From Blautia sp. (GTDB lineage Bacteria > Bacillota > Clostridia > Lachnospirales > Lachnospiraceae), in contig JAFVGK010000036.1 in NCBI GenBank assembly GCA_017475035.1, positions 1 to 55,793 of the forward strand: 55,793 nt of DNA, in the 5' to 3' direction. The notes below the pieces were generated by a model. The model ran no database searches and was not told where the DNA came from. It was given only the letters and a program-made list of their open reading frames with translations. Made by a program: the position numbers and the translations under genes. Positions 10,355-15,783 of the stretch are shown here, one piece after another. Positions within the stretch are counted from its first letter, which is position 1; every line of letters begins with the position of its first letter.

Positions 10355-10379
10355 ACATAAAGAAAGGGGAATGAAAACT

Positions 10380-12269
10380 ATGAAGAACCATATCCTGAAA
10401 AAATTGTCCGTATTTGCTTTGGCTGCTGTGATGGCTATAGGCGGATCGTCGATGAGCGCATTTGCAGAGGCTGAAAGCACAGAGTCGGGAGAAAATGCTT
10501 CCGTTGAGGACGATAGCGCAAAAGCCATAGAATTGCTGGAAGAGATAAAAGGCACGTATGAACCGCTGTTCCCGATCATAACGGATCCTCAGTATGACCA
10601 GCTGTGGCTTGATCCATGTATAGCTGTCGTTGGTGAAGAGGCTGCCCCCGAGGTGGCAGAAATGCTGAAAGCTGCCTGCAACGGAACTGTTTACGGCCAG
10701 GAAGCAATAGACGCTTTCGGCGATGGATCCGAAGGGGCACAGTTTGACTGCCTGTTTATCAATGGCCCGTCCGCCATCACATTTGACGGAAATATAATCA
10801 GTGGGACTGATGAAAATGGAGACCAGCTCTTTTCCCATGAGTACAGGTTCGTTGACGGACTTTCCCTGGCGGGACTGATGGAAGGCTTTCTGTATGAAAC
10901 GGAAGACGAGGATGCAGGTGAATTCAAATACTTCTATATGATGCCTGACACACCCGCTGCAACATATCATCTGGAGTTCCGATATGGAAGTGACGTTGAT
11001 GCCCTTTCACAGTATAACGAAGGACCGTACGCTTACTGGCTGGCAGCAGGATTCCCTGTAGATGCTGATGAAGAGATGATAGAAAATGTCATCACTCTTT
11101 TCTGTGAAGAGAATCTGGCAGAAATGCAAACGGAAGAAACTGCATTTGCAGGAGGATCCGGAACAGAGGAAGATCCGTGGCAGATTGCAGATGCGGACCA
11201 GTTAAACCTTGTCCGTGAAGACCTGGGAGCCCATTATATTCTGACAGATGATATTGATCTCACCGGCGCAGAATGGGAGCCGATCGGGAACCTTAGTGAT
11301 CCGGAATCCTATTCAACGATGTTTATGGGCGTATTCGATGGAGGAGGCCATACAGTCACCGGCCTGGAATTCAGCAGTGAAGGACCACTGATTGGAGCCG
11401 GACTCTTCGGTGTGAGCGCAGGGGAGATCAGGAATCTGAATATGGAAGGCTGCAGCGTGACATGCACAGGCCTGGTGCCTGGAGATGATCAGGCGGCAGG
11501 AATTATTGTAGGCTACAATATGGGTGGAACCGTGACCGGGTGTACAGTGAAAGCAAGCGAAGCGGCCAGTCTGAATTGTACAGGCATTATTGCCGGAGGA
11601 AGCGGCGGAACTGTTACAGACTGTGTAGTGGAGGACTGTACAGTTACTGTACTGGGGGATAATGAATTCACTGATGGCATAAAACAGTGTGACGTTGCGG
11701 AGTGCGGCGGCCTGGTGGCAGGTGGTGCTTTCGGCGGCACGGTGAGTGACTGTACGGCATCCGGAATGATTATCGCTGAAGGAAATGAACCGGTCGGTAT
11801 CGGCGGCATAGCCGGCTGCCTGGAGATGATGAGTGAAGTGAAAGGAAACAAAGTTCATGTAGAAATCACTACAAAAAACGGCGGCCATGCAATTGGAGGC
11901 TTATGCGGATACGCGGGAACCCATTCTGATGCTGCGCTGATGATGGAAAAGACAGGAGTAGAAGTGACAGAATACCCGTCCCTCATCCATAACTGTGAAG
12001 TGGAAGCTGTCATCAATGCGAATGGTGCTACTCATGTTGGAGGTCTGATTGGAACTAATTTGTATTTCTTTGGTGAGGAGACCACCTGGAATGCTTATGA
12101 CTGTGACGTTAAGGCAGAGATCATTGGTGCAGTTACACCGGGTGCCTTGTTTGGCAGAGCAGAAAATTGTGAATACTCAGACTGCTCATATGAAGTCACT
12201 CTGGATGGGGAAACTCTTCTGAATGAAGTAGGAGAGACAGACATCATGTATGAGAGCCTGGATCAGTAA
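10380..12269 (+). CDS. Secreted protein with GLUG-type beta repeats
   Basis: This protein of about 629 residues is predicted to be exported. Its signal peptide is MKNHILKKLSVFALAAVMAI, with probable cleavage after SAFA (residue 29). Start 10380 is preferred because AAAGGGGA lies 9 nt upstream, whereas ATG 10371 touches that site. Residues 30-260 are an acidic domain ending in YAYWLAAGFPVDADEEMIEN, a signature shared with the gene at 21210. Residues 265-620 start with GGSGTEEDPWQIADADQLN and FDGGGHTVTGLEF, then run as GLUG-like beta-helix repeats rich in Gly and paired Cys. Such regions are often surface adhesins or matrix proteins (inference). No LPxTG anchor is seen. Confidence 0.8.
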   Translation: MKNHILKKLSVFALAAVMAIGGSSMSAFAEAESTESGENASVEDDSAKAIELLEEIKGTYEPLFPIITDPQYDQLWLDPCIAVVGEEAAPEVAEMLKAACNGTVYGQEAIDAFGDGSEGAQFDCLFINGPSAITFDGNIISGTDENGDQLFSHEYRFVDGLSLAGLMEGFLYETEDEDAGEFKYFYMMPDTPAATYHLEFRYGSDVDALSQYNEGPYAYWLAAGFPVDADEEMIENVITLFCEENLAEMQTEETAFAGGSGTEEDPWQIADADQLNLVREDLGAHYILTDDIDLTGAEWEPIGNLSDPESYSTMFMGVFDGGGHTVTGLEFSSEGPLIGAGLFGVSAGEIRNLNMEGCSVTCTGLVPGDDQAAGIIVGYNMGGTVTGCTVKASEAASLNCTGIIAGGSGGTVTDCVVEDCTVTVLGDNEFTDGIKQCDVAECGGLVAGGAFGGTVSDCTASGMIIAEGNEPVGIGGIAGCLEMMSEVKGNKVHVEITTKNGGHAIGGLCGYAGTHSDAALMMEKTGVEVTEYPSLIHNCEVEAVINANGATHVGGLIGTNLYFFGEETTWNAYDCDVKAEIIGAVTPGALFGRAENCEYSDCSYEVTLDGETLLNEVGETDIMYESLDQ

Positions 12270-12294: not shown

Positions 12295-12340
12295 AAAGCC
12301 CGGAATTATGCAAGCAGAAATGCAAAATTCCGGGCTTTTT
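12295..12340. terminator. Two-way terminator between convergent genes
   Basis: AAAGCCCGGAATT pairs with AATTCCGGGCTTTTT around an 18-nt loop. It closes the GLUG-type gene on the plus strand and can also stop the toroid gene arriving on the minus strand. Confidence 0.85.
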
Positions 12341-12378: not shown

Positions 12379-13554
12379 TCATTGAATAGTTAACAATGGA
12401 TTGTAACCGTTTACTGCAAGGATGTACCATCCGCAGACGCCGGTAGAAGGCCAGTTGTAGATTTCGGTGTCCTTCTCTCCTGTTGCGAGAGTGGGGATGC
12501 TGGCCTGTGGGAAGGCGCCGGAGGACAATTGGAGCGCATCCATAGCGGCAAGAGCCTGTTCAGAGGTCTCCGGATCATCTGTTTCCGAAAGAGCAAGTGC
12601 CGCGATAGCTGTTCCTTCCAGCCAGAAGCCATCTGTGTTGGAATTATCGTAAGAATATCCGCCTTCTGATGTAAGGCAGCTGTCCATATTGTCCAGACCG
12701 GATTCATCACCAAAGCAGAGCGCCGTCAGTGCCTGGATATCAGCGCAAATCAGATTGGTGACAGGTGTCTCACCGTCTTCCTCCGTACCCTGGAAAAATC
12801 TGCTGTCTCCTGCGGAATACATGCTCTCGGTAACAAATTCCCGGGCGGAGGAAGCCGCATCTGTATAGATTTCCCACCCTGTGGCTGCTCCCAGCATGCT
12901 TGCGGCAGCATACATCCAGATATTATCTGCAGTGGATTTGTACGTAAAAGTTGTAGAAACGTTTTCTTGTGGCCACCCGGTGTACCCTGAGGTAAAGCCC
13001 GGCGTATCATCCGCGCAGTTATTGATCACCCAGCTGACTCCTGAAGCGGCTGCATTCAGGTATTCATCTTTTTGTGTTTCCTTATAACCAATCATTAGGG
13101 CGACAGCTGCTGCGCAGCTGCTTTTTGTTCCTGTGCCCACCTGATATTCGTCCTGGAACCACTTTTTGGCTTCATCATTCCAGTACCCGGGCAAATCAGA
13201 AGCTTTGCCTGCCATGTAGGCATTACGGAACCGGTCGGAGTACACCTTGTCTTTTTCCATGCCGGCTGTGAGGGCGTCAAGAATCAGCCCGGCAGTTTCA
13301 TAATCCCCTTCGGACATAAGAGCAATGGCGGCGATGGCATTTTCGTACGTATACGAAGCCGAAGAAATCAGAGGATCTTCCGTCTCATAGGTGACCATCG
13401 GGCATTTGTCGGCGATGGCGGATTTCAGGTATTCAACGGCCATATCCTTCTGGCTTGTTCGATCCTCACCGGCAAAAGCGGAAGATGCCAGCATACCGGC
13501 AGTAAAAACTGCCAGAACCGCTGCTGTAAATTGCTTTTTTAATCCTTTCCGCAT
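12379..13554 (-). CDS. Secreted alpha/alpha-toroid protein (paralogue of the TIR protein's outer domain)
   Basis: This 391-residue protein has a signal peptide (LKKQFTAAVLAVFTAGMLAS, cleavage near SAFA-GED). The mature part is an all-helical repeat fold of the six-hairpin toroid type: YENAIAAIALM, KSSCAAAVALMIGY, STADNIWMYAAASM, CADIQALTALCF, EGTAIAALALSE and CGWYILAVNGYNPL are regularly spaced hairpin signatures. These signatures match the last 310 residues of the TIR protein encoded just upstream. No catalytic residues can be assigned with confidence; such folds include glycoside hydrolases and terpenoid-cyclase-like domains. The 59-nt gap to the TIR gene suggests one operon. Confidence 0.75.
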   Translation of the reverse strand: MRKGLKKQFTAAVLAVFTAGMLASSAFAGEDRTSQKDMAVEYLKSAIADKCPMVTYETEDPLISSASYTYENAIAAIALMSEGDYETAGLILDALTAGMEKDKVYSDRFRNAYMAGKASDLPGYWNDEAKKWFQDEYQVGTGTKSSCAAAVALMIGYKETQKDEYLNAAASGVSWVINNCADDTPGFTSGYTGWPQENVSTTFTYKSTADNIWMYAAASMLGAATGWEIYTDAASSAREFVTESMYSAGDSRFFQGTEEDGETPVTNLICADIQALTALCFGDESGLDNMDSCLTSEGGYSYDNSNTDGFWLEGTAIAALALSETDDPETSEQALAAMDALQLSSGAFPQASIPTLATGEKDTEIYNWPSTGVCGWYILAVNGYNPLLTIQ

Positions 13555-13613
13555 ATTGATTACTCCTTCTCTTTGTTTTATGTTGTACTTATTGTCCTTT
13601 TTGTCCGGCTGTA

Positions 13614-15554
13614 TCAGTCCGGAATGCTCACATAATTAAATGGATCATATCTGAGAGCGGCAATTGCATACCATGCTGCAGCTGAGGTCCTGGATACATT
13701 TGTATAGGTTTTTCCCGGAGCATCAGCTATGGAAGCGATATCTGCCTCGGGGATACTGCCGTTGTCCAGCTGGTACGCATACACTGCGGAGATCGATTCG
13801 GCTGCAAGATCCTCCATACCCGTCTTTTGATAAGCGCAAGCCATCATTGCTGTACATTCCATCACGCCGACTGACATATCGGAATCTGGTGAAAAACATC
13901 CGTTTTCCCGTCGGAGACCGGAGACTTTTTCTATTCCGGACTGGTCATTCATCACGAGCGCGGCCAGAGCCTGCACCTCGCAGGATACTACCTGTGAATC
14001 CATAGATGTGTCCTTAAAGACTCCGGTAAGGAAATAAGAAGAGTCTTCTGAACGCATGGATTTTACAAAGGCTTCTGCGGCATCCATAGCATCCTTGTAA
14101 GATGGGCTTTTTGTTTTTTCAAACATCATCTGAAAGGCGGAATACAGCAGAATATTGTCTGCTGTGTAACGGTCTTCCGAAGCAATGCCTGAACAGAAAC
14201 CGCCATCTTCGGATTTACAATTCTCTGTCACCTGATCCAGGATAGACTGCGCCGTGCGCGCATAGGTGATGGAAGGTTTAAACCTGTCTGCCCGGAGCAG
14301 GGCGATTGAAAGAGCTGCAATGTCCCTGGTCCGGAACCCGGAGCTGTCCTTTGCCATTTCGACCAGAGGATCCAGAAGCTTTCCGGCACTGGTAGTGCTG
14401 CTGTTCCGGTTGGAACTTTCCGCCAGCAGGGCTAAAGCCGCCATCGCATTATCATAGACAAGGTCAGCTTCGGCCTCATCATTCCCCCTGGGATCATATA
14501 CCGAAAGAGGAATGCCGCCATGCAGGCGTTCCTTCAGGTAATCGACAGATTTCTTTCCTGAAGATATGAGTTTTTCCGGATCTGCCGCTGTAACATGGAC
14601 TATGATTTCTTCGGCAGTATCCGTTACATTTACATCAGAAGATGCATCGGATGCATTACCATCGGACACATCCGCTGCATTTTCATAGAAGGATGCAGCT
14701 GTCGTACTTCCTTCAGAATTTTCTGCAGCTGCATTCTCATCAGAGGATATAGCGGCTGGATTCTCATTTGAGGATACTGCGGCCGTATTGTTCTCGGAAG
14801 AAGCTTCGCCGGAGGATGTCGAAGCGACAGCTTCTTGCTGCTGTGATGTCTGGGAAGACGCGTCAGGCTTCTCTTTTCCGGGGCGCAGTACCATTACAGC
14901 ACCCAGAATCACTACCGCAGCGATAGCAATTCCGATTACCAAACCGTATTTTTTCCACACTGACGGAGGCGGCGGGGATGGAGTCCCGACGGGATCTTTT
15001 TTCGTCCCGGCATCGTCCACATTTTCTCCGGATCCTTCTGCCTTCAAACCGGAATCAGCTTTCCGCTCACCATCTGTTACTCCGGCAAGTCTCTGGTCCA
15101 GTGAGGGATCATAGCAGGGTGCAAGGATTTCCTCATCAAGATCACAGATTGCGTCCACCATCTCTATTACCGAGTCGAACTTGTACATGGTGATATAGTT
15201 GATAGCGGCAAAACGGAACTTGATCCCCGGAGGGAGCTCTACCGGATCCAATTTAATCGGAATCACCGGTTTCCTCTCTGAGAACGCGTAATGAAGCTCC
15301 GATTTACAGTAATCTGAAGTAATATACTTTGAAGACAGAAAGCTGAAGAAAACTTTACAGTCTGTGATTTTGTCTGCAAGAGTATCTACAAAATTGGAAC
15401 CGCCGGGAATCCCGTTATCATGCCAGATTCTGTAGCCCCTGCTGTGAAGCTCGGATATGATATCATAGACAATATCAGAATCAGCATGATTGTAGCTGAT
15501 AAAAATGTAGCCATCATTTCCCTTATAGGGTTTAAATAATTCTTTAATGTCCAC
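13614..15554 (-). CDS. Membrane-anchored TIR protein with extracellular alpha/alpha toroid
   Basis: The start is taken as GTG 15554, with AAAGGAGG about 10 nt upstream, giving 646 residues. Residues 13-135 form a TIR domain: YIFISYNHADSD, RGYRIWHDNGIPGG, CKVFFSFLSSKYITSDYC, then Glu86 in KSELHYAF at the position of the catalytic Glu of NAD-cleaving TIRs. Residues 137-200 are a charged linker ending in a proline run. Residues 204-224 (GLVIGIAIAAVVILGAVMVL) are one membrane helix. Residues 225-325 are a Ser/Ala/Asn-rich outer linker with NENPAAISSDENAA-type repeats. Residues 336-646 are a helical toroid homologous to the secreted neighbour. The TIR is therefore inside and the toroid outside (topology inferred). 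Confidence 0.82.
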   Translation of the reverse strand: MDIKELFKPYKGNDGYIFISYNHADSDIVYDIISELHSRGYRIWHDNGIPGGSNFVDTLADKITDCKVFFSFLSSKYITSDYCKSELHYAFSERKPVIPIKLDPVELPPGIKFRFAAINYITMYKFDSVIEMVDAICDLDEEILAPCYDPSLDQRLAGVTDGERKADSGLKAEGSGENVDDAGTKKDPVGTPSPPPPSVWKKYGLVIGIAIAAVVILGAVMVLRPGKEKPDASSQTSQQQEAVASTSSGEASSENNTAAVSSNENPAAISSDENAAAENSEGSTTAASFYENAADVSDGNASDASSDVNVTDTAEEIIVHVTAADPEKLISSGKKSVDYLKERLHGGIPLSVYDPRGNDEAEADLVYDNAMAALALLAESSNRNSSTTSAGKLLDPLVEMAKDSSGFRTRDIAALSIALLRADRFKPSITYARTAQSILDQVTENCKSEDGGFCSGIASEDRYTADNILLYSAFQMMFEKTKSPSYKDAMDAAEAFVKSMRSEDSSYFLTGVFKDTSMDSQVVSCEVQALAALVMNDQSGIEKVSGLRRENGCFSPDSDMSVGVMECTAMMACAYQKTGMEDLAAESISAVYAYQLDNGSIPEADIASIADAPGKTYTNVSRTSAAAWYAIAALRYDPFNYVSIPD

Positions 15555-15783
15555 AGTCGGGGAGCCTCCTTTCTGATGCAAGATCTGCTTCAGGTCAGGT
15601 TAACGATGTTTAATCAGTATTTCCTTTAAAACGTGATTTCTTTGATATCCATAGAAATTATCTCTCCCGGCTTCATATCCCCAGGCACGCCCTGGCTTTT
15701 TCGCGGCAGTGGATTACCGCAAAAAAACCTCTCTACCATTTTACATCATTATCTTTCATTTGTGAAGATAAAAGAAGAAGGTC

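Follow-up and report, generated by a model that had tools for sequence, protein, structure and literature searches.

What might a membrane-anchored bacterial TIR protein be listening to, and what role is played by the secreted protein encoded beside it? These questions are raised by two adjacent genes in a 55,793-nt stretch of DNA from the gut bacterium Blautia sp. (contig JAFVGK010000036.1 of assembly GCA_017475035.1, positions 1 to 55,793; hereafter, the window), the first encoding a TIR domain, a membrane helix and a helical toroid, and the second a version of the toroid bearing a signal peptide. We lean towards the answer that the two genes together encode an outside-in receptor, in which a glycan-like ligand outside the cell would be converted into signalling derived from nicotinamide adenine dinucleotide (NAD+) inside. 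The initial annotation had proposed that an outside toroid senses an external cue and triggers an inside TIR enzyme; the underlying observation is confirmed here and a receptor reading is the best one, with the pairing, the retention of a TIR glutamate and the likelier topology in its favour, but the toroid now appears to have a glycosidase fold that has lost its putative catalytic residues.

A TIR protein and a secreted relative of its toroid

The first gene (13614..15554, minus strand, like all features of the pair given below) encodes 646 amino acids from a GTG start, 5' of which AGGAGG (15565..15570), read in the sequence, is a likely ribosome-binding site; a longer form would begin with TTG at 15581. 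Its TIR domain spans residues about 11-147 (15114..15524) by profile match and model, the Pfam TIR_2 profile matching residues 17-124 with 80.5 bits against a curated cut-off of 28 (E 1.9e-22). The sole hydrophobic segment over threshold, residues 205-223 (14886..14942), is modelled as a helix at 200-221 and is followed by a 99-residue linker rich in Ser, Ala, Glu and Asn (residues 224-322; 14589..14885), predicted to be disordered to about residue 316, and by a tethered (alpha/alpha)6 toroid (residues 323-646; 13617..14588) recognised from the model, fold search and alignment. In the AlphaFold2 model, which has a mean predicted local distance difference test score (pLDDT) of 77.0 and falls below 50 at residues 160-201 and 223-316, the TIR domain is mostly confident, residues 223-316 are disordered and the toroid is confident from about residue 326.

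The second gene (12379..13554) begins 59 bp downstream, on the same strand, and encodes 391 amino acids from an ATG start. As had been claimed, it carries a toroid alone behind a signal peptide (residues 1-28, ending at the AFA–GED junction; 13471..13554), the latter recognised by eye and by a hydrophobic stretch at residues 9-27. The secreted (alpha/alpha)6 toroid (residues 30-391; 12382..13467), assigned by model and fold search, was predicted with a mean pLDDT of 94.2 and a predicted template modelling score of 0.91. The tethered and secreted toroids share 28% identity across 363 columns (E 7e-27), far beyond chance. The hairpin motifs reported as common to them are present in both, except that the last reads GWY rather than AWY in the secreted protein.

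Recurrence of the pair with its gene order

A family scan in which each species was represented by a single genome yielded 123 relatives, from which 80 loci were kept and 43 weaker relatives left out. Among the window and these 80 loci, the secreted type occurs in four (the window, L040, L041 and L042, the last being the record of genome G032), with a mutual identity of 56-66%. In all four, the tethered type lies directly upstream on the same strand, with gaps of 19-174 bp, and the co-occurrence across genomes anticipated for the pair is therefore observed. Three of the four tethered proteins contain a TIR domain; the one at L042 has a membrane head but lacks TIR. In a sample of the genus, the tethered toroid was matched in 2 of 64 genomes, the window's own and G032, and among 392 genomes of the order and 398 of the phylum, all matches outside the window's genome were weaker (E 2.8e-27 or worse, spanning about residues 88-323 of the search model); we take these, judging by score alone, for ordinary toroids.

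A tree of 31 toroids unites the eight paired ones in a single clade (100/99) that splits into a secreted (99/94) and a tethered (100/100) branch, with L040 and L041 as sisters in both. The simplest reading is a single duplication preceding the split of the four lineages, after which the tethered and secreted toroids appear to have been inherited as a pair. The window comes from a draft assembly (200 contigs, 5.03% contamination), and one might ask whether the arrangement is a chance fusion or an assembly error without function as a pair; we consider this highly improbable, as it is already contradicted by the same gene order in named records of other assemblies and by the co-branching of secreted and tethered toroids. 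The secreted toroid patterns gave no match in viral contigs, the phage collection none, and the plasmid collection a single match confined to the TIR stretch; hence, these collections give no sign of mobile carriage.

The topology with TIR inside and toroid outside is the likelier one on sequence and model, because the paralogue begins with a signal peptide and because positive charges are distributed asymmetrically around the membrane helix: four before and three after in the window protein, three and two in L041, and six and two in L040, the only protein in which the helix charges favour it strongly. None of the outcomes named beforehand as fatal (no co-occurrence, a TIR fold without the NADase pocket, or both domains on the same side) arose, the latter two being judged from sequence and model.

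Paired toroids look like pseudo-enzymes

Fold searches with the models assign both window toroids to a six-hairpin (alpha/alpha)6 glycosidase fold; the matches among the rows listed include dextran dextrinase (9ju0), MmpH (7qsj), glucoamylase (1lf6), GH76 and GH88, at 8-15% identity. Fold searches were needed, as sequence searches of Pfam and the PDB with the secreted toroid alone gave no match, and neither window protein matched the GH88, GH76 or GH127 Pfam profiles up to E 1. One relative of the secreted toroid, in L027, matches glycosidase profiles below the cut-off (for example, GH88 at 22.8 against 26.6). With the 646-residue protein, no TIR structure appeared among the fold matches listed, the toroid having filled the rows.

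The fold is thus common to these glycosidases and the pair, but the pair is without the putative acid residues. In the numbering of the secreted toroid, used throughout, the 80 other toroid rows have E134 in 78, E209 in 79 and H210 in 78, although the scan motifs span residues 186-194 and 204-212, so that conservation there partly reflects selection, with A and D permitted at 209-210. The eight paired toroids have lost E134 and H210 in every case and E209 in seven. The secreted partners carry Q at 134 (Gln134 in the window, 13153..13155), A or S at 209 and D at 210 (Ala209-Asp210, 12925..12930), whereas the four tethered partners have no counterpart of residues 108-135 and D or E at 210, E209 being retained by L041 alone; in the tethered toroid of the window, D102 and R103 are also replaced. 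In 92 columns, conservation among the other rows reaches 80% or more; secreted partners retain 60-68 of these and tethered partners 32-40. We regard E134, E209 and H210 as the putative catalytic residues of the family on grounds of conservation and fold, and by this yardstick the paired toroids would not be counted as active members; because each of these residues is missing from seven or all eight of them, the paired toroids look like pseudo-enzymes.

The loss might instead mean that the catalytic residues have shifted, leaving the paired toroids enzymatically active on glycans, with the TIR domain regulating sugar use. Glu313 is retained in all eight paired toroids and Asp135 in all four secreted ones, and L081 encodes a 1154-residue fusion (L081:4631-8095) of TIR, membrane helix, unnamed domain and an apparently intact toroid, in which 13 of 14 listed sites match other family members. 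The losses at 134, 209 and 210, the tethered form without its 108-135 segment, and the lack of any sugar-uptake family among the ten neighbouring window open reading frames (ORFs) scanned nonetheless make active enzymes improbable.

Two TIR classes beneath one ectodomain

The window TIR matches Cat1 in the PDB (8.2e-10), and its Glu86, the glutamate of a CKSEL motif (15297..15299), aligns with that of Cat1, in keeping with the position first given to it. For the L040 TIR, the nearest PDB chains are tir-1 (2e-24) and SARM1, which places it in a SARM1-like class, and its glutamate aligns with that of tir-1; we take these aligned residues to be the catalytic position of a type of TIR domain that often cleaves NAD+. 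In the TIR tree, the window and L041 group together (95/91), as do L040 and L081 (100/99, 62% identity), and forcing the window, L041 and L040 TIRs together was rejected (p 6.4e-5), in a test whose group was named after the tree had been seen and on a tree that carried a long-branch warning. Of the TIRs compared, that of L081 is the closest relative of the one in L040. The alignments and tree indicate that the TIR class was swapped beneath a conserved ectodomain with the catalytic-position glutamate retained, which argues that the enzymatic output matters.

The window's own genome has 12 further TIR paralogues, with a convincing membrane helix in L012 alone (L012:2323-3204), a 293-residue TIR–helix stub without a real ectodomain; L019 has one weak hydrophobic stretch within its repeats. 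We therefore abandoned the idea that this genome holds a family of TIR receptors bearing many different ectodomains.

Genes beside the toroid family

TIR genes, recognised by profile, occur in 10 of the 80 toroid loci against 0.80 expected (Poisson P 1.4e-8), and in 8 of 77 against 0.74 (P 1.2e-6) once the three pair loci are left out. The expectation was taken from the TIR density in the same genomes (121 matches in 39 genomes, together with the other 39 genomes); the Poisson model assumes an even spread, and TIR genes cluster, so that the P values are too small and direct fusions and operons weigh more. Weak TIR-like matches in L072 and L074 were not counted, and all ten TIR-holding loci fall in a 40-locus subset chosen once the TIR loci were known. 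In the genomes of L044, L077, L081 and L097, the sole TIR match is the one at the toroid locus, as positions compared by hand show. RyR genes were found at three loci against 0.10 expected, a comparison biased by its restriction to the same subset. Two operon-like runs combine these genes, with the order TIR–DUF6273, RyR, toroid and SLOG-like at L097 (1589-8902) and RyR, TIR, toroid and RyR at L098 (3292-8480).

Following the L040 pair without a gap is a gene for a protein with sub-threshold YAcAr SLOG (0.0029) and DUF4231 (4.5e-4) matches and four hydrophobic segments, a putative SLOG–SLATT pore. A relative of this protein is encoded 13 bp before the toroid at L054, and the SLOG-like label at L097 comes from a BLAST-cluster link to the L040 and L054 proteins, its own Pfam match being weak. 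The toroid thus belongs to a wider surface-toroid family found near TIR, RyR and possibly SLOG/SLATT genes. Across the 39 genomes of the 40-locus subset, positions read by hand place 10 of the 21 RyR matches no more than 5 kb from a TIR match, a hint that TIR and RyR are partners more widely in these genomes. By eye, the TIR proteins of L081, L097 and L098 share an unnamed domain starting with PKG.

The family also has a second context: single-linkage clustering placed proteins from 24 of the 80 loci in a cluster represented by an example with glycosyltransferase 2 and kinase domains. Such neighbours, together with the absence of TIR from L042, would fit an arrangement in which TIR is a scaffold recruiting cytosolic partners and the toroid an anchored carbohydrate binder, so that the pair organises the envelope or capsule and does not signal through NAD+. 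We think this unlikely, as both TIR classes used with the ectodomain retain the catalytic-position glutamate and RyR, a family linked to cyclic ADP-ribose (cADPR), is enriched in toroid loci within the biased subset. A small protein, about 150 residues in most cases and resembling a helix-turn-helix protein by eye, is encoded at 14 loci (for example, L114:4278-4733), mostly on the same strand and shortly before the toroid gene; the one member scanned had no Pfam match.

A possible outside-in receptor

The receptor that we favour would work as follows. The secreted toroid would bind a glycan or glycan-like ligand without cutting it; the envelope of the cell itself, a competitor or a phage enzyme could be the source of this ligand. 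The ligand-bound form would then dock on the tethered toroid, whose cleft is more degraded, and docking would cluster or re-orient the receptor such that TIR domains meet inside the cell and NAD+ cleavage is switched on. The output might be a second messenger in some species, as the putative SLOG–SLATT pore at L040 suggests, and mere NAD+ loss elsewhere.

This last step is the only one at which a suicide switch, whereby envelope attack causes TIR to deplete NAD+ with no messenger, would depart from the proposed receptor. The L040 TIR is nearest, among PDB chains, to tir-1 and SARM1, which are NAD+ hydrolases by their PDB names, and the ten ORFs around the window pair include no recognised messenger effector; the putative SLOG–SLATT gene right after the L040 pair and the RyR genes beside the L097 and L098 TIRs suggest a soluble product, and we judge pure depletion to be somewhat unlikely. 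A broader version of the receptor reading, which we put forward only tentatively, is that these are true bacterial outside-in TIR receptors: a swappable NAD+-cleaving TIR would be joined by a single membrane helix to a dead glycosidase ectodomain, the dead secreted twin would capture ligand as a co-receptor, a SLOG–SLATT pore would be the effector in some species, and glycan damage or foreign glycans would raise a TIR alarm as a counterpart of Toll.

Several observations weigh against the receptor. The secreted/tethered pair is rare, and because one of the four pairs (L042/G032) has no TIR, the toroid pair may function without it. The near-intact toroid joined to TIR in L081 indicates, with its 13 of 14 sites, that activity loss is not needed for a TIR link. 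At the membrane helix of the window protein, the charge asymmetry is slight (four before, three after). The SLOG and SLATT matches at L040 lie under the curated cut-offs, which leaves the pore a possible assignment, and the L040 query found no SLOG–SLATT homologue in the window genome, an empty answer that proves little.

If the receptor is real, its sensor pair, exported and derived from enzymes, would allow bacteria to answer outside signals with NAD+-based alarms, a parallel to Toll built from different parts, and this would help to explain why some bacteria retain glycosidase-fold surface proteins next to TIR genes. A clear test is within reach, since this ectodomain is found with either of two TIR classes and, in one case, with none.

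Comparison with known systems

To our knowledge, bacterial TIR systems characterised so far detect infection from within the cell. The TIR enzymes of SARM1/tir-1 and Cat1, which the L040 and window TIRs respectively match with the glutamate aligned, are switched by inside metabolites or a CRISPR messenger, and we know of no comparable ectodomain in them. LuxP–LuxQ likewise combines a soluble exported binder with a membrane receptor, but the folds are unrelated, and a kinase stands there where TIR stands here.

Thoeris (ThsB TIR with ThsA SIR2-SLOG or TM-macro, the latter form of ThsA being described in the passages covered of PMC11204291) shares with the pair the catalytic-position glutamate of TIR and, at L040, an adjoining gene for a putative SLOG and membrane-helix effector. 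The window TIR differs in being membrane-anchored, with a probably extracellular toroid and a secreted partner. A ThsA-like effector gene (SIR2-SLOG or TM-macro) was not recognised among the ten window neighbours scanned, smaller ORFs being left out, and matches to Thoeris families are low (ThcB4 24.8 bits against a cut-off of 220; best PADLOC ThsB match E 4.1e-6, over the TIR stretch only). According to passages of PMC9503650, ThsB produces variants of cADPR that are detected by the SLOG domain of ThsA, phage TIR genes adjoin two-transmembrane SLATT genes, and SLATT is predicted to be a membrane effector regulated by ADP-ribose; phage RyR-domain proteins degrade or sequester cADPR signals according to PMC13232231. 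Animal Toll-like receptors, in the part covered of PMC7075850, are likewise single-pass proteins with TIR inside and a repeat-built ectodomain outside; however, the window TIR is N-terminal, the opposite order, and probably enzymatic rather than adaptor-binding, and the ectodomain has a glycosidase fold instead of leucine-rich repeats. The titles, abstracts and passages covered, including those of PMC8195603, describe no membrane-bound TIR protein with a toroid outside the cell; a 2025 preprint on TIR systems could overlap.

Other features of the loci

The check for defence neighbours that had been proposed found none beside the pair: among the ten neighbouring window ORFs, with smaller ones left out, PADLOC and Pfam gave no convincing defence family, PADLOC returning only weak biotin ligase matches to regulator models and Pfam housekeeping or unknown families. 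Convergent with the pair is a gene (10371-12269, plus strand) for a 632-residue, exported-looking protein with GLUG motifs. A GC-rich palindrome between them (12298..12335, no strand assigned), read in the sequence, is a possible two-way terminator; it is not among the elements listed by the pattern scan. At L041, only 4 bp separate the secreted toroid from the start of a HEAT-like repeat protein (L041:8190-9701, below Pfam cut-offs). The genome that contains L041 also contains L046, which encodes a 478-residue protein (L046:2517-3953, minus strand) with TIR, membrane helix, Thr/Pro-rich linker and leucine-rich repeats (LRR_4, 38.3 bits against a cut-off of 27), that is, Toll-like parts in reverse order, and its gene adjoins a second TIR–membrane helix gene and a toroid gene.
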